From Planotetraspora phitsanulokensis (GTDB taxonomy: Bacteria > Actinomycetota > Actinomycetes > Streptosporangiales > Streptosporangiaceae): 64,000 nt of DNA. Each line of letters starts with the position of its first letter. Within the stretch, counting starts at the first letter, position 1. The position numbers were made by a program, and so were the translations under genes. Positions 56,512 to 63,079 of this stretch are shown here, in pieces. Below the pieces are notes generated by a model that made no database searches, was not told the DNA's origin, and worked only from the letters and a program-made list of their open reading frames with translations. The stretch lies in contig NZ_BOOP01000007.1 of NCBI RefSeq assembly GCF_016863295.1, positions 1 through 64,000 of the forward strand. The letters are read 5' to 3'.

Positions 56512-57990
56512 ATGACCGTGGCTCAGACGACAAGGCCGTCACGCACGCGAACGTCCAGCACCTCCAGAACTCGCTCCGCAGTGGCGAAGAGGCCCGCAGT
56601 GGCGAAGAGGCCCTCCGGCCACCAGCTCAAGCTCAACCTGCCGTTCATGAGCATCCAGGTCCGCCAGCCGGAAATGCGGATGCCGCACATGGACATGCCT
56701 CACATCAGCAAGCGTGAGGTCGGACAGGCCGTGGACATCGCTCGGACGTTCCTCCCCCCGCCTGAGCGCATCGTCTACTACGGCGGCCTGGGCGCGCTCG
56801 CCGTCCTCGGGCTCATCGAATGGCCCGTCGCGGCGGCCATCGGCGCCGGGACGATAATCGCTCAGCGCACCAAGATGCAGGAGCGCTGGTCCCCGCTCCG
56901 CGCGCAGCGCCCCACACCGCCGAAAACCACGCGAACGGCCGAGAAGGCCGCCGAGGGCGCCGAGGCGCCGGCGGCGCGCAAGCCCGCCGCCCGGCGCACC
57001 ACCGCGCGCAAGCCGACGGCCGGGGCGGCGAAGCGCACCACCGCCCGGACGACCGCGGGACGCGCCGCAGCCGGACGGACCACGGCCGGACGCGCGACCA
57101 CCGCCCGCACCGCCGCGGGACGCGCCACCACCGCCCGCACCGCCGCCGGACGGGCCACCACCACCGGACGTGCCGCCGCCGGACGCGCCGCAGCCGGACG
57201 GACCACCGCCGGACGTGCGACCACCGCGCGGACGACCACCGCCGGACGTGCCGCCGCCGGACGGACGACCACCGCCCGAACCACGGCCGGCCGCACCACC
57301 GCCGGACGCGCCACCACCGGACGTGCGACCACCGCCCGGACGACCACGGGACGCACCACCGCCGCACGGCGCACGACCGGAGGCACGACGACCGGACGCA
57401 CCACCACGGCCCGCACCACCACCGGCCGCGGCACGGCAGCCGGGCGGACGACCACGGGACGCACCACCGCCGCACGGCGTACGACCGGAGGCACCACCGC
57501 TGGACGGACGACCGCGGCGCGAAAGACCCCCGCGCGGACGACCGCACGGCGCACGACCGGAGGCACGACGACCGGGCGCACCAGCACCGGCCGCGCCACC
57601 CCCGGGCGCAGTACCGCCCGACGGACGACCACGGGACGGACCGCCACCAGGCGCACCACGACCGGACGCTCGACGAGGCGCACCTCAACGGGACGGACCT
57701 CAGCGGCACGCGCCTCCATGGCACGGACGTCGCCCGCGCGCATCAGCACCGGGCGCACCACCGCCACCGCGCGCACGTCGACGGCGCGGACTCCCGCGAG
57801 GCGTACCGCGACGGCACGCACGGCAACGGCACGCACCGCCACAGGGCGCACCACGGCGGCGCGGAAGGCCACGGCACGCACCGCGGCCACACGCGGCTCC
57901 GCGGCGCGCACCGTGACCATGCGGACCGGGAGCGCGAAGCCGTCCGCCAAGCGGGCGTCGGCCAAGCGCACCACCAAGGTCGGCGAATAG
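56512..57990 (+). CDS. Arg/Thr/Ala-rich repeat protein with a Met/His cluster and one membrane segment
   Basis: A 492-residue protein of unusual composition. Residues 1-45 are Ser/Thr/Arg-rich. At 54-64 a Met/His cluster, EMRMPHMDMPH, could bind metal such as copper. Residues 65-87 hold an amphipathic helix, and 88-117 are hydrophobic (IVYYGGLGALAVLG, then WPVAAAIGAGTIIA). From about 135 to the end the chain consists of imperfect 5-residue units such as TTAGR and TTARR, very rich in Arg, Thr and Ala, nearly free of acidic residues, and ending in KRASAKRTTK. The tail resembles histone H1-like or HupB tails that bind DNA or polyanions. ATG 56512 has GGGGAGG 5 bases upstream. The gene precedes the giant P-type ATPase. 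Confidence 0.7.
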   Translation: MTVAQTTRPSRTRTSSTSRTRSAVAKRPAVAKRPSGHQLKLNLPFMSIQVRQPEMRMPHMDMPHISKREVGQAVDIARTFLPPPERIVYYGGLGALAVLGLIEWPVAAAIGAGTIIAQRTKMQERWSPLRAQRPTPPKTTRTAEKAAEGAEAPAARKPAARRTTARKPTAGAAKRTTARTTAGRAAAGRTTAGRATTARTAAGRATTARTAAGRATTTGRAAAGRAAAGRTTAGRATTARTTTAGRAAAGRTTTARTTAGRTTAGRATTGRATTARTTTGRTTAARRTTGGTTTGRTTTARTTTGRGTAAGRTTTGRTTAARRTTGGTTAGRTTAARKTPARTTARRTTGGTTTGRTSTGRATPGRSTARRTTTGRTATRRTTTGRSTRRTSTGRTSAARASMARTSPARISTGRTTATARTSTARTPARRTATARTATARTATGRTTAARKATARTAATRGSAARTVTMRTGSAKPSAKRASAKRTTKVGE

Positions 57991-58411
57991 GGGCAGCACG
58001 GACCGGCGTGGCCGCGTCCCAGAGTGCGTCCGGGGGGTTTCGGCCCCCAGGTCCGCACCATGGACACGTGACCACGTCGCCTGCCTCCACTGGTCGAGCC
58101 GACCTGCTTCACCTGCTTCACCCGCTTCACCCGCTTCACCCGCTTCACCCGCTTCACCCGCTTCACCCGCTTCACCCGCATCACCCGCTTCACCCGCATC
58201 ACTTGCATCACCCGCAGTACCCGCGTCACCCCGCGTGACCTTCCTGGCCCGATCCGGCTGACCCCGGTCGGGACGTCGAAGGGCTCGGGGGGTGCGCACG
58301 CCCACCATCGATCACTCTCCGTGGTCGATCCTGTTCGATCCGTGCCGGGCGGTCATTCGTGATCACCCGGCGTTGTCCACCACGTCCACGATTCGAAATC
58401 CGGAGAACGAC
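57991..58411. other. 421-base non-coding stretch with minisatellite between the Arg-rich gene and the P-type ATPase
   Basis: This gap carries a GGGGG-TTTCGG-CCCCC hairpin at 58033-58048 that may end the Arg-rich transcript, followed by the 14-copy 9-bp repeat (58104-58229). It must also hold the ATPase promoter and a GGAG ribosome site. Long frames crossing it on both strands are products of the repeat, not genes. Confidence 0.6.
58104..58229. repeat. 14-copy 9-bp minisatellite, CCGCTTCAC consensus
   Basis: Fourteen consecutive 9-base units run from 58104 to 58229. The first two read CTGCTTCAC, eight match CCGCTTCAC exactly, and the rest have one to three changes (CCGCATCAC, TTGCATCAC, CCGCAGTAC, CCGCGTCAC). 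The run is a perfect multiple of three, so it would read Leu-His-Pro on the plus strand and Val-Lys-Arg on the minus strand. It lies upstream of the P-type ATPase. Confidence 0.9.
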
Positions 58412-61400
58412 ATGTGGCCGTTCGGCTCGCTGGCCGCCGACTCATTGCTGGCCTTGGTGCCGGACCAGGTCCTCACCCTGGTGCCCGATCCTGTGCTGTC
58501 CCTCATACCGCGGGCACGGCGGACGCAGGTGTGCGCCGGCGGGGTGCGGATCAGCCTCCGCGTCATCGGAGGCCCCGGCACCGAGAAGGCGATCTCCGGT
58601 CTCGAGACGCGGCTGTGCGACGCGGGGATGGACAGGGCTGAGGTCAACGGCGCCCTCGGCTGCGTCTTCATCGCATGCGATCCCGCGACGGTCGACATGG
58701 ACAAGCTCCTGCGGATCGTGGAGGAGTTCGACGTCGACGACCCCGACGGCGACCTCGGCGTCGACCAGGCCGGCGAGCAGGAGACCGCCGACCGGCCGTC
58801 GGACCCGACCGCCGAGCCGGAGATCGACCCGGCCACCCGGGCCGCCCAGGTCGCCGAGGCCGTCCAAGCCGTGCTCGACGACGCCGCCCGCGCCGAATCG
58901 GTCCTCGGCCACGCCCTTGAGGAAGGGGAGTCGGTCGCGGGCGAGGACCTCGCGGAGGCGGTATCGGACGAGGACCTCGCGGAGGCGGCGGCCGTCCTGG
59001 ACGGCGAGGCGGCCGACGACTGGGAGATGGAAGAAGGCCCCGAGGACGGCGCCGACGAGGGCGTGTGGGCGCGGGACGCGCGCGAGCACCATGCCCGGGC
59101 GGCGCTGAGCCTGGCCGGCAGCCTCCTCGGCACCGGGGTGGCCCTCGCGGGACGGGCGACGCGGGTGTGGCGGCTGCCCCCCACCGTTCCCACGTTCCTG
59201 CATCTCGCCGAGCACACGCCGCGAGTCCGCCGGGAACTGGAGCAGCGCCTCGGCTCTCCGGGCACGGAGGTGCTGTTCGCGGCGACCCGGCTCGTCGGCC
59301 AGACGCTCGGCCAGCGGCCGGCCGGGCTGTTCGTCGACTCGCTCGCCGCGGCCGGCCGGTACGCCGAGGCGCGTGCGGGGCTCGGCGCGTGGGCCCGCCT
59401 GGAGGAGGCGTTCGCCACCCACGACGGGGCCTACGCCCACGTCCGAGCGGAGAAGGACCCGCGGCCGGAGTCGCTTCCGCGTGGGCCGATCGAGCGATAC
59501 TGCGAGATCGCCAGCCCCGCGTCGCTGGCGGCGCACGGCCTCACCCTCGCGGCGAGCCGGAGCCGGGCCCGGGCGCTGTCCGTCCTCATCACGGGGACGC
59601 CGAAGTCGGCGCGCGTGGGCCGGGACGCCTTCGCCAGCGCGGTCGGCCGGGCGCTGGCCAAGCGCGGCGGCGTCGTCCTCAACCGGCACGCCCTGCGCCG
59701 GATGGACCGTGTGGACACCGTGATCCTGGACGCCGAGACGCTCACCACCGGGTCCTGGACGATCGACGCGGTCGTCCCCCTGACCCCCAGGCTCGACCTC
59801 GACGACCTGCACGATCGCCTCTACTCGTTGATCGACCTCACCGACCCCGAGGCCCGGCGCCGCCACGACGGCTGGAAGGCCGAGCCGTACAAGGGGGACG
59901 AGGATCTCGCGCAGGTGGCGCAGTGGCGCGCCCAGGGGATCCGGGCCGTCACGGTCACCAAGGGCAGGAGGGCCGTCGCGCTGGTCGGCCTCGCCCCCGA
60001 GCTGCACCCGCTGGCCGAGGTGCTGGCCGAGGCGCCGAGCGGCACGTGTGAGGTGTTCCTGGCGGGAGGCCCGTCGTGGCTGGCCCGCCGGCTGCACGTG
60101 GCCCAGGTCGCGGGCGGCGACGATCTCACCGGCGCGGTCGTGGACCTGCAGGCCGAGGGCCGCGGCGTGGCCGTGGTCGCCGGCGGGTCCCACCGCGCCC
60201 TGCGTCAGGCCGACCTGGGTGTCGGCCTGATCCGGAGGTCTCGTCAGGTGCCCTGGGAGGCGGACGTCCTCGGCGACCTCGGCTGCGCGCATCTGATGCT
60301 CGCCTGCCTGCCGGCCGCCCGGCGCGCGAGTGAGCTGGGGGTGCGGCTCGCCGCGGCCTCCGCGGTGGTCGGAGGCGCGCTCGGCATCCTCGGGATGGAA
60401 CGCACCGCAGTACGGCGGGCTCAGCTCGTGGCCGACGGGACGTCGCTCGCGTCGCTCGTCCTGGGCACGTGGGCGGGGCGGCGCGTGGCGAACGGCGAGA
60501 CGCCGGTCACGGCCGACCGCACGCCCTGGCACGCGATGTCGGCGCAGGACGTCCTGGCCCGGCTGAACAGCTCCCCCAGCGGGCTGACCGAGGCCGAGGC
60601 GGCACTCCGGAGGAAGACGTCCGCGCGGTCCACTCCGGCGGGCCCCGAGTCCCTGGTGAAGGCGTCGGTCGAGGAGCTGGCCAATCCGCTCACCCCGGTG
60701 CTCGCGGCGGGTGCGGGGGTCTCCGCGGCCATCGGGTCGGTCCTCGACGCGGTGCTGATCGTCAGCGTGATGGCCGTCAACGCCTTGCTCGGCGGCGCGC
60801 AGCGGCGCGATGCCGGCCGGGTGCTGAGCGCCCTGTCGGAGGCCACTGCCGTACGGGTGCGGCTGCGCCGCCCGGACGGCGCCGGAGACGGCGGCCAGAC
60901 GAGCAACGCCGCGGACCTGGTCCCCGGCGACGTCATCGAGCTTCGGGCGGGCGACGCCGTCCCCGCGGACGCCCGGCTGCTCAAGGCCGTGGGCCTGGAG
61001 ATCGACGAGTCCACTCTCACCGGGGAGTCGCAACTCGTGAGCAAGGCCGTCGCGCCGACCACGGCTCCTGCGGTCGCCGACCGCAGCTCCATGGTGTACG
61101 AGGGCAGCTCGGTCGCGGCGGGTTCCGGCCTCGCGGTGGTCGTGGCGACGGGTGAGGAGACCGAGACGGGCAGGACGGCCAGGCTCGTCCACGGCGGCCC
61201 TCCCCCCAGCGGCGTGGAGCTGCGGTTGCGCACGCTGAGCAGCAAGATCGTGCCGATGGCGATCGGCTCCGGGGTGGTCCTGATGGCCGGGGAGCTGCTC
61301 CGCGGCGCGTCGTTGTCGCAGGCTCTCGCTCCGGCGGTGAGCCTCGCCGTCGCGGCGGTCCCCGAGGGCCTTCCGTTCGTCGCCACGCTCGCGGAGCTGG

Positions 61401-63079
61401 CGGCGGCCAAGCGCCTGTCGACGCGGAACACGCTCGTCCGCAACCCGTCCACCATCGAGGCCCTCGGACGGGTCGACGTGCTGTGCTTCGACAAGACGGG
61501 CACGCTGACCGAGGGCCACATCAGCCTGCGCCGCGTGTCCGACGGCCGGGTCGAGGGCGGCGCGGGCTCGATGACGCCGCAGTTGCGCCGGGTCGTCGCG
61601 GCGGCTCTGCGCGCCGGACCGAAGTTCGAGGGCGGCCGGCTGCTCGCGCACCCCACCGACCGGGCCGTGGTCGAGGGGGCGCAGGGTCTCGGCGTCGGCC
61701 CCATCGAGGGGCTGGAGAAGTGGGAGCGGGTCGACGAGATGCCGTTCGAGCCGGCGAGGGGCTTCCACGCGGTGCTGGGCCTGGCCGAGTCGGGGCATCT
61801 GCTCAGCGTCAAGGGCGCCCCCGAGGTGGTGCTGACCCGGTGCGCGACCCTGCTCCGCGACGGCGAGGAGGCCGAGCTCGACGAGGACGCCCGGCTCGAG
61901 CTGGAGACCGAGGTGGAACGGCTCGCCCTGCAGGGCTACCGGGTCCTCGCCGTGGCGGAGCGGCCCGCTTCCAGCCGCGCGGACCTGGACGAGTCGCGGG
62001 TGGACCGGCTGTGCTTCCTCGGATTCCTCGGCATGGCCGATCCCGTGCGCCCGACCGCCGCGCGAAGCGTGCAGGGCCTGATGAAGGCGGGCGTCCGGGT
62101 GATCATGCTGACCGGCGACCACCCGAGTACGGCCGAGGCCATCGCGGCCGAGATCGACGCCGTCAACGGCCTGCGGGTCATGACGGGCCCCTCGCTCGAC
62201 GTGCTCGACGACGAGGAGCTGGTCAAGATCCTTCCTGAGGTGTCGGTGTTCGCGCGGACCACGCCCGCCCACAAGGCCCGCATCGTCGCGGCCCTGCGGC
62301 AGTCGGGCAACGTCGTCGCCGTCACCGGGGACGGCGCCAACGACGTGCCCGCGATCCGCCTCGCCGACGTGGGCGTCGCCCTCGGCTCCCGGGCCACGGC
62401 GGCGGCCCGGGCCGCCGCCGACATCGTCGTGACCGACGACCGCATCGAGACGATCATCGACGCGATCGTCGAGGGCAGGGCCATGTGGGGCTCGGTCCGC
62501 GACGCGCTGGGCATCCTGCTCGGCGGGAACATCGGCGAGATCATCTTCACCGTGGGATCGAGCCTGCTGACCGGCCGCAGCGCTCTGAACGCCCGGCAGC
62601 TCCTGCTGGTCAACCTGCTCACGGACATGTTGCCCGCCATGGCGGTCGCCGTACGGCCGCCGAGCGCCGCCAGCCCGGAGAAGGTCCTGGCGGAAGGGCC
62701 GGAGAGCTCCCTCGGCACGGCGCTGACCAGGGACATCAACGTGCGCGCCGTGACGACCGCCTCCGCCGCGGGGGCCGCGTGGCTGGCCGCCCGGATGACC
62801 GGCACCCGGAGCCGGGCGGACACGGTCGCGCTCGTGGCCCTGGTGTCGGCCCAGCTGCTCAGGACCCTCGGCGCCGGCGGCCGGGACCGCACGGTCACGA
62901 TCGCCGCGATCTCCTCGATGGCCGCGCTGATGGTCATCGTGTCGACTCCCGGCGTCAGCCAGTTCTTCGGATCACGCCCGATCGGCCCGTTCGGCTGGGG
63001 AATCGGGCTCGGATCGGCCGCGGCGGCGGGACTGATGGGCGGCACGGTCGAAAAGACGATCGAGAGGATGTATGGCTGA
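58412..63079 (+). CDS. Giant P-type ATPase (CtpI-like) with degenerate N-terminal half
   Basis: A 1555-residue membrane pump, about double a normal P-type ATPase. Residues 30-120 form a ferredoxin-like (HMA-type) domain lacking CxxC. An acidic linker follows. The region 220-660 aligns with the catalytic core but is degenerate: the phosphorylation site DKTGTLT reads DAETLT at Asp440, and the hinge GDGAND reads AGGSHRA at about 590-596. The active core follows: TGES 870-873, PEGL 984-987 in the fourth membrane helix, DKTGTLTEG with phosphorylated Asp1027, GDGANDVPA at 1306-1314, and terminal membrane helices. PEGL instead of CPC argues against heavy-metal specificity and for a Ca/Mg/alkali-type substrate. 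The size and order resemble mycobacterial CtpI. ATG 58412 has GGAG 7 bases upstream. Confidence 0.85.
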   Translation: MWPFGSLAADSLLALVPDQVLTLVPDPVLSLIPRARRTQVCAGGVRISLRVIGGPGTEKAISGLETRLCDAGMDRAEVNGALGCVFIACDPATVDMDKLLRIVEEFDVDDPDGDLGVDQAGEQETADRPSDPTAEPEIDPATRAAQVAEAVQAVLDDAARAESVLGHALEEGESVAGEDLAEAVSDEDLAEAAAVLDGEAADDWEMEEGPEDGADEGVWARDAREHHARAALSLAGSLLGTGVALAGRATRVWRLPPTVPTFLHLAEHTPRVRRELEQRLGSPGTEVLFAATRLVGQTLGQRPAGLFVDSLAAAGRYAEARAGLGAWARLEEAFATHDGAYAHVRAEKDPRPESLPRGPIERYCEIASPASLAAHGLTLAASRSRARALSVLITGTPKSARVGRDAFASAVGRALAKRGGVVLNRHALRRMDRVDTVILDAETLTTGSWTIDAVVPLTPRLDLDDLHDRLYSLIDLTDPEARRRHDGWKAEPYKGDEDLAQVAQWRAQGIRAVTVTKGRRAVALVGLAPELHPLAEVLAEAPSGTCEVFLAGGPSWLARRLHVAQVAGGDDLTGAVVDLQAEGRGVAVVAGGSHRALRQADLGVGLIRRSRQVPWEADVLGDLGCAHLMLACLPAARRASELGVRLAAASAVVGGALGILGMERTAVRRAQLVADGTSLASLVLGTWAGRRVANGETPVTADRTPWHAMSAQDVLARLNSSPSGLTEAEAALRRKTSARSTPAGPESLVKASVEELANPLTPVLAAGAGVSAAIGSVLDAVLIVSVMAVNALLGGAQRRDAGRVLSALSEATAVRVRLRRPDGAGDGGQTSNAADLVPGDVIELRAGDAVPADARLLKAVGLEIDESTLTGESQLVSKAVAPTTAPAVADRSSMVYEGSSVAAGSGLAVVVATGEETETGRTARLVHGGPPPSGVELRLRTLSSKIVPMAIGSGVVLMAGELLRGASLSQALAPAVSLAVAAVPEGLPFVATLAELAAAKRLSTRNTLVRNPSTIEALGRVDVLCFDKTGTLTEGHISLRRVSDGRVEGGAGSMTPQLRRVVAAALRAGPKFEGGRLLAHPTDRAVVEGAQGLGVGPIEGLEKWERVDEMPFEPARGFHAVLGLAESGHLLSVKGAPEVVLTRCATLLRDGEEAELDEDARLELETEVERLALQGYRVLAVAERPASSRADLDESRVDRLCFLGFLGMADPVRPTAARSVQGLMKAGVRVIMLTGDHPSTAEAIAAEIDAVNGLRVMTGPSLDVLDDEELVKILPEVSVFARTTPAHKARIVAALRQSGNVVAVTGDGANDVPAIRLADVGVALGSRATAAARAAADIVVTDDRIETIIDAIVEGRAMWGSVRDALGILLGGNIGEIIFTVGSSLLTGRSALNARQLLLVNLLTDMLPAMAVAVRPPSAASPEKVLAEGPESSLGTALTRDINVRAVTTASAAGAAWLAARMTGTRSRADTVALVALVSAQLLRTLGAGGRDRTVTIAAISSMAALMVIVSTPGVSQFFGSRPIGPFGWGIGLGSAAAAGLMGGTVEKTIERMYG

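Follow-up and report, generated by a model that had tools for sequence, protein, structure and literature searches.

Locus and comparison set

The window analysed here is a stretch of 64,000 nucleotides from Planotetraspora phitsanulokensis (contig NZ_BOOP01000007.1, positions 1 to 64,000 of the forward strand). It holds a gene for a P-type ATPase of 1555 amino acids (58412-63079, forward strand), whose ATG at 58412 is preceded by GGAG at 58402-58405. The first 694 residues (N half) carry a degraded P-type ATPase core, and the remainder (C half) is an intact P2A-like pump. Upstream of the pump gene, a further gene encodes a small membrane protein marked by a W-P motif, here called the partner (Table 1). 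In Pfam, the pump gives a single P-type ATPase match (residues 706-1543), and the N half alone (residues 1-713) has no match at E≤1. The N halves of three Planotetraspora relatives are 84-89% identical to that of the window in the best segment. A second copy of the fused pump is found on contig 30 of the same genome (L032), in a frame of 1472 amino acids with an N half that is 49% identical.

The comparison set consists of 63 sequences, i.e. the window protein and 62 relatives, and is the alignment source for the N-half profile A3. Frames of at least 1380 amino acids with correctly spaced DKTGTL and [TS]GES motifs were included. L052 was excluded, being the same record as L055, and ten fetched loci contributed no row (L050, L051, L095-L102): they hold ordinary pumps or pieces at contig ends, and in L101 and L102 the gene is split. 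Three loci fetched later (L201-L203) stand outside all counts. A recount indicated that no true fused full-length frame was lost through the selection rule; the long frames left out were read as shadow frames that overlie these genes or, for L100, a contig-end piece.

A degraded pump core in the N-terminal half

Profile-profile comparison with hhalign was made against 26 P1B pumps, 21 P2-type pumps and the family's own C halves. The N-half profile with its insertions scores 202.5 (E 5.8e-24) with P1B, 108.5 (E 4.1e-12) with the own C halves and 71.4 (E 2.1e-7) with P2; after removal of the insertions the scores are 161.3, 99.1 and 64.7, respectively. In the controls, also with insertions removed, the maximum was 28.4 over 100 full column shuffles and 26.4 over 100 shuffles confined to windows of 25 columns, and the reversed profile reached 16.4-19.3. 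A first-pass annotation, made from the letters of the window, had read the protein as a pseudo-ATPase/ATPase tandem, beyond a mere long N-terminal extension, and this is borne out by scores of 65-161 as opposed to at most 28.4 for shuffled sequence. The segments that it had picked out as dead motifs, KRGGVVLNRHALRRMDRVDT (417-436), DAETLTTG (440-447) and GVAVVAGGSHRALRQADLGV (585-604), are indeed present, and its register was correct, as the profile-profile alignment of N and C pairs those same segments. The self-alignment that it had suggested depends on the method: BLASTP of the single N half against the C half is not significant (three best pieces with E 0.37, 0.52 and 0.70, the second being the GVAVV piece), whereas the profile-profile score of 108.5 is. 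A phmmer search of the PDB with the single N half returned no match, and the N half was unmatched in the plasmid collection.

The dead motifs are dead in all 63 sequences compared. GDGxND is lost across the N halves, DKTGTLT is reduced to little beyond its aspartate (D440, kept in 58/63) and the CPC metal site of P1B pumps has become P-K/R (P in 63/63, K/R in 60/63), while a CxxC before residue 113 occurs in one sequence of the set. Contrary to the first-pass reading, the A domain is missing, with about five residues (345-349) standing opposite roughly 90 P1B columns that hold TGE. The N domain is shrunken as well (median distance from D to GDG of 156 vs. 198 residues in P1B). Hydropathy is weak, the family average exceeding 1.1 only at 231-249 and 643-664, compared to P1B peaks of up to 2.34. 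Given the motif loss, the missing A domain and the weak hydropathy, the N half is expected to work neither as an ATPase nor as a channel.

Conservation within the N half is highest in the pseudo P domain, with a mean column identity of 0.61-0.63 at 391-450. Over the hydrophobic segments it is 0.25 at 211-240 and 0.52 at 631-660, so the difference is modest. Across the set, 27 N-half columns are at least 90% identical. An AlphaFold2 (AF2) model of residues 31-117 has a mean predicted local distance difference test score (pLDDT) of 58.6, and its order of elements, E-H-E-E-H, is compatible with a ferredoxin-like fold. Foldseek found no match to this model at E≤0.001, and the 50 matches listed included no heavy-metal-binding domain.

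Pump class of the degraded half

P1B is the best-scoring profile for 63/63 N halves. At E<1e-3, 51 of them match P1B, seven match the own C halves and none matches P2. The heavy-metal ATPase model TIGR01525 of NCBIfam matches window residues 367-459 (E 4.6e-4). Over the 63 N halves at E≤0.01, TIGR01525 is matched 21 times, TIGR01512 13 times and TIGR01511 six times, besides other P1B models, Kdp (2) and a generic model (4); none of the P2 models matches at this threshold. In the PDB, the A3 profile finds 23 distinct sequences at E≤0.1, of which the top 16 are copper or cation pumps of the heavy-metal type (E 2.5e-12 to 1.8e-3) and the remaining seven, with E 0.0039 to 0.036, belong to the P2 and P3 classes. 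Among 296 genomes of the phylum, A3 has matches in 201, mostly to ordinary pumps (best E 5.8e-29); the six best of these ordinary pumps all score highest as P1B, and five carry CPC.

The architecture agrees with these matches. Residues 30-115 match the HMA region of P1B pumps with E 3.3e-7, vs. 0.08 for C and 0.23 for P2. The median spacing from TGD to GDG is 40 in the N half, 46 in P1B, 72 in the C half and 73 in P2, and the stretch following the dead GDG site measures about 103 residues, compared to a median of 120 in P1B and 262 in the C half. The whole P domain of the N half scores 140.3 against P1B and 104.2 against C. Because of the P1B profile preference, the HMA-like domain, the P1B-like spacing and the short stretch after GDG, a fusion of two pump classes is likelier than a copy of the protein's own core, and a P1B origin of the N half is well supported, if not proven. 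The internal degenerate copy of its own core that was proposed at first pass thus holds as far as the presence of a dead P-type core is concerned, but the better match, for every N half of the set, is P1B and not the own core.

The C-terminal half

In all 63 C halves, TGES, PEG, DKTGTL, TGD, GDGxND, N1373 and E1376 in M5, and N1401, T1404 and D1405 in M6 are invariant; as DKTGTL and [TS]GES were used for selection, their invariance is no finding. The closest solved relative is the Ca2+-ATPase lmo0841 from Listeria (E 1e-108), followed by SPCA1 and SERCA. The M5 and M6 residues correspond to the Ca2+ ligands of SERCA. Judged by these motifs and matches, the C half is an intact P2A-like pump with an ion site of the Ca2+-ATPase type. 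It shares the catalytic motifs and the M4, M5 and M6 ligand positions with the P2A Ca2+-ATPases (lmo0841, SPCA1, SERCA), from which it differs in scoring below the TIGR01522 cut-off and in being preceded by a dead pump of 694 residues.

Table 1. Features of the fused pump gene and of its partner gene in the window
Feature	Residues	Position	Strand	Basis or remark
Fused gene, pseudo-P1B and P2A-like ATPase	1-1555	58412..63079	+	1555 amino acids, ATG 58412, GGAG 58402-58405
Degenerate HMA-like domain	36-112	58517..58747	+	P1B HMA-region profile match; no CxxC before residue 113 in 62/63
Acidic linker, 32% D/E, variable length, weakly constrained	113-218	58748..59065	+	Composition, dN/dS
Eroded membrane-helix region of dead half, A domain deleted	219-384	59066..59563	+	Weak P1B match, E 0.0029; hydropathy
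T-P-K where P1B M4 has the CPC metal site	396-398	59597..59605	+	P397 63/63, K/R398 60/63
Pseudo P domain	384-626	59561..60289	+	P1B profile E 2.2e-18; CopB/CopA P domains in PDB with A3, best E 2.5e-12
DAETLTTG, dead DKTGTLT	440-447	59729..59752	+	D440 is D in 58/63
AGGSHR replacing GDGxND	590-595	60179..60196	+	Alignment
C-terminal hydrophobic segments of dead half	617-635, 643-661, 670-688	60260..60475	+	Family-average hydropathy
Intact P2A-like (Ca2+-ATPase-like) half	695-1555	60494..63076	+	Pfam; PDB best lmo0841, E 1e-108
TGES, A-domain motif	870-873	61019..61030	+	63/63; [TS]GES is a selection requirement
PEGL in M4	984-987	61361..61372	+	PEG 63/63; alignment
DKTGTLT, phosphorylation motif	1027-1033	61490..61510	+	DKTGTL 63/63, a selection requirement
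GDGAND	1306-1311	62327..62344	+	GDGxND 63/63; alignment
M5 N1373 and E1376	1373, 1376	62528..62539	+	63/63; alignment
M6 N1401, T1404 and D1405	1401, 1404, 1405	62612..62626	+	63/63; alignment
Partner gene, W-P membrane motif and R/T/A-rich tail of ~360 residues		56512..57990	+	Likely ATG 56512; longest frame from GTG 56413
Conserved partner core		56707..56877	+	Window row of alignment A2

Distribution and selection

The N half was found in 63 of the 120 genomes of the family, 60 times in frames of 1346-2011 amino acids and three times in frames of 920, 1035 and 1282 amino acids. A single-sequence search of the 296 phylum genomes gave matches in 22, two of which (G114, G275) have them only in frames of ordinary size (722 and 726 amino acids). 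At E<1e-30, A3 likewise matches in 22 of the 296, five of them with shorter frames (324-1286 amino acids). Upon inspection of short-frame cases, L099, L100 and L202 proved to be contig-end pieces. Among the relatives examined, none was seen in which a frame-broken N half goes together with an intact C half.

The N half is under purifying selection. Over five comparisons, the ratio of non-synonymous to synonymous substitution rates (dN/dS) is 0.11-0.33 for the N core, 0.19-0.44 for the pseudo P domain and 0.09-0.23 for the C half, vs. 0.26-1.60 for the linker; the HMA-like domain has 0.16-0.30. Evolution is faster in the N core, with a mean identity of 0.35, than in the C half, with 0.53. Pairwise identities of N and C are correlated (r 0.91, 1953 pairs), a value that is purely descriptive since the rows are related. 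Planotetraspora and a near relative have the longest linkers, of 64-108 residues (window protein, L053, L054, L055 and L057). That both halves are retained together in related actinobacteria suggests a job for the dead half, for instance to direct the live half or to anchor it.

The neighbouring W-P membrane protein

The membrane segment of the partner has the form YYGGLGALA..G.IEWPVAAAIG. In the window, the tail that follows consists of 20% R, 32% T and 25% A, and a tandem array with a 15-bp unit (57034-57669, 42.2 copies, 65% matches) encodes most of it. Another tandem array, of 9 bp, lies between the partner and pump genes (58102-58231, 14.4 copies, 89% matches). By iterative search, the partner was found beside 40 of the 63 fused pumps, in 45 copies (40 upstream and five downstream, eight on the opposite strand). 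Its tails range from 1 to 433 residues; most are basic, and those of the short copies downstream of the pump in L041-L043 are acidic. In these three loci, from genomes of the same taxonomic class, the pump is flanked by two partner-type genes. The upstream copy matches weakly (E 1.8e-7 to 2.8e-5) and has a basic tail, and in the short downstream copy HN is followed by the acidic tail.

No convincing Pfam family was found for the partner cores, three families being matched by one or two members each with a best E of 0.024-0.045, and the whole window partner reaches 29.5 of the 40 bits set for HC2 (histone-H1-like), i.e. below the cut-off. DUF1490 and DUF6110 were matched at E≤1 by 0/40 partner cores. 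In a genome search, PF07371 matched 0/60 genomes and also 0/14 controls; as it matched nothing, controls included, no DUF1490 profile comparison is possible. The alignment A2 of the partner cores omits two of 42 (the second copy of L090, and L047). Over the 296 phylum genomes, the partner is present in ten, of which nine belong to the 22 with a fused pump and one, a weak match (E 5.3e-4), to the remaining 274. Fisher's test gives p 1.1e-10 but is biased towards this finding, since the window and six A2 rows come from the same genome set and genomes are not independent. Two further partner-type genes occur in the window genome, L193 on contig 4 (7631-7933, forward strand) and L194 on contig 50 (131-724, reverse strand); on contig 50, the open reading frames of at least 150 amino acids within the initial 9 kb include no obvious pump. 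The partner copy of G128 (weak, E 2.0e-5) lies about 0.8 Mb away from its pump.

Net charges of the acidic linker and the basic partner tail are correlated over 40 loci (Spearman -0.43, p 0.006). Without six close relatives, the 34 remaining loci give -0.09 (p 0.60), and charge pairing of linker and tail was rejected as a general rule. Separately, the K/R conserved at the old metal site (residue 398, 59603-59605; 60/63) and an acidic residue before the W in 39/40 partner cores might form a charge pair.

Relation to known systems

The FUPA24 family (TC 3.A.3.24), with CtpH and CtpI of mycobacteria, is described as having an unusually large N-terminal segment (two transmembrane segments according to TCDB) and ten transmembrane segments in the C-terminal half (PMC3573892). 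By layout and published descriptions, our protein fits this kind. It shares with the family an approximately doubled length, a long segment at the N terminus, the confinement of the catalytic motifs to the C-terminal half and PEG in M4, and the pair of PEGM and DKTGTLS in L041 and L042 fits what is reported for CtpH (PMC3573892). The difference is that, in the portions of that article available to us, the N-terminal segment is not called a dead P1B pump (PMC3573892). One article cites CtpH as taking part in the pumping of calcium (PMC9180918). In a review from 2023, CtpI and CtpH appear as isolated members of the P-type superfamily that have not been characterised (PMC10654040). With 1555 residues, and with its intact motifs confined to 870-1311, the window protein has the double length of the family. 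Fused or degenerate halves may be mentioned for some uncharacterised families in the primary family description, and no priority is claimed here. Among the papers listed in the literature searches (titles and beginnings of abstracts, for several searches of the top 10-20 of many, a scope outside which that description by Chan et al. 2010 falls), the N-terminal segment was not found described as a P1B pseudo-ATPase.

With P1B pumps of the CopA/CopB type, the N half shares the HMA-like domain, the P-domain core and the spacing, but it differs from them in the absence of CxxC, CPC, TGE, DKTGT, GDGxND and the A domain, and in its reduced N domain. In mycobacteria, PacL proteins (DUF1490) scaffold P1B pumps (PMC9374683). 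Like the partner, PacL is a membrane protein of small size whose tail is of low complexity and whose gene lies next to that of a P-type ATPase (PMC9374683); unlike PacL, the partner belongs to another sequence family, has a tail that is usually basic (R/T/A-rich in the window) and accompanies an ATPase of another class. A P-type-ATPase-like part is likewise fused to another enzyme in the Toxoplasma guanylate cyclase, although that protein is eukaryotic and its part is P4-like and joined to a cyclase (PMC6592433).

Proposed role and alternative explanations

On balance, the protein is probably a fusion of two P-type ATPase classes, with a P1B-derived dead half (1-694) as a regulatory or docking module and a live P2A-like half (695-1555). 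Residues 1-694 would descend from a heavy-metal (P1B, type I) pump, of which a cysteine-less HMA-like domain, eroded helices, P-K/R in place of CPC, a reduced N domain and a non-catalytic P domain would remain, with no A domain. The live half would do the transport, most likely exporting Ca2+ or a similar divalent cation. From the dead half, neither a phosphorylation cycle nor the usual metal binding would be expected. Instead, it probably docks on the live pump's cytosolic domains, on the small membrane partner encoded next door or on both, and this docking would set the activity of the pump or its clustering or placement in the membrane. The dead half is most likely a built-in module, since it is kept fused and under selection, and its regulation of the active half, already suggested at first pass, is a reasonable idea. 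The cation, the docking and the regulation or scaffolding are inferred.

Several results weigh against this fusion of two classes. The P1B hidden Markov model is not reached at E<1e-3 by 12 of the 63 N halves, and the structure prediction suggested at first pass, an AF2 model of residues 215-696 built from four near-identical rows (the window and three Planotetraspora relatives), is unusable at a pLDDT of 33.6. A remnant free of chemistry does not need D440, which is nevertheless retained (58/63). Against TIGR01522, the PMR1-type Ca2+ model, the C half scores 427.9 bits, below the curated cut-off of 798.3. The partner was not found in the fetched flanks of 23 of the 63 loci, including L032 in the window genome itself. 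In L101, L102 and L201 the fused gene is split or stops early, so that, unless these are assembly errors, it is not intact everywhere. The other points concern the origin and favour a tandem duplication, in which the N half would have been copied from the protein's own P2-type core and have decayed since. Besides the in-register alignment of N and C, the P1 block alone gives no separation (47.0 with C, 46.9 with P1B), and P-domain trees over 195 columns disagree: under LG+G4 (113 rows) N joins P1B at an ultrafast bootstrap of 100 (FastTree 0.84), whereas the better C20 mixture (C20-PMSF, 58 of the 113 rows) places N with C at a weak 57/96 and still allows N+P1B (p-AU 0.444). The phylogeny of the halves that the first-pass annotation had suggested thus speaks for both sides, and the origin is not settled by the tree alone. 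As the tree is undecided, duplication of the own core is kept as a rival; as first choice it was rejected on profiles and architecture, and we consider it unlikely in view of the uniform P1B preference of the 63 N halves, the whole-P-domain scores, the HMA-like domain, the P1B spacing, the short stretch after the P domain, and PDB and NCBIfam matches that are mainly P1B.

The remaining alternatives concern function. The N half might be only a membrane anchor or assembly aid that leaves turnover unaffected, which would agree with the persistence of weak hydrophobic segments and with a W-P partner laid out like a scaffold protein. The pseudo P domain, however, is more conserved than those segments, by a modest gap, and we regard this explanation as rather improbable, albeit less so than duplication. 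A heavy-metal or redox sensor that takes up metal through the HMA-like domain and gates the live pump would account for the retention of that domain at low dN/dS, but with CxxC absent before residue 113 in 62 of the 63 sequences and CPC replaced by P-K/R in 60, it is very unlikely. Finally, the N half could be a functionless, decaying relic, as the loss of the catalytic motifs, the faster evolution of the N core and the split or truncated genes might suggest. Such a relic is difficult to reconcile with the dN/dS of the N core and the 27 nearly invariant columns, and the breaks in L102 and L201 hit the C half and leave the N half whole, those in L101 affecting both halves; it is the least probable of the explanations.

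A broader and decidedly tentative picture, more doubtful than not, would be that of actinobacterial divalent-cation pumps that have captured a dead P1B pump as a fused regulator and that form, together with a W-P protein of an undescribed family, a platform resembling the PacL effluxosome for Ca2+-type pumps, mycobacterial CtpI included. The long N-terminal segment of the FUPA24/CtpH-CtpI proteins was noted previously and, in the portions of the article available to us, left unexplained (PMC3573892). Reading it as a dead P1B pump would give a concrete, testable role to half of each protein of the family. The family would also exemplify the joining of a dead pump to a live one from a different class, and this reading draws attention to the unstudied partner gene.

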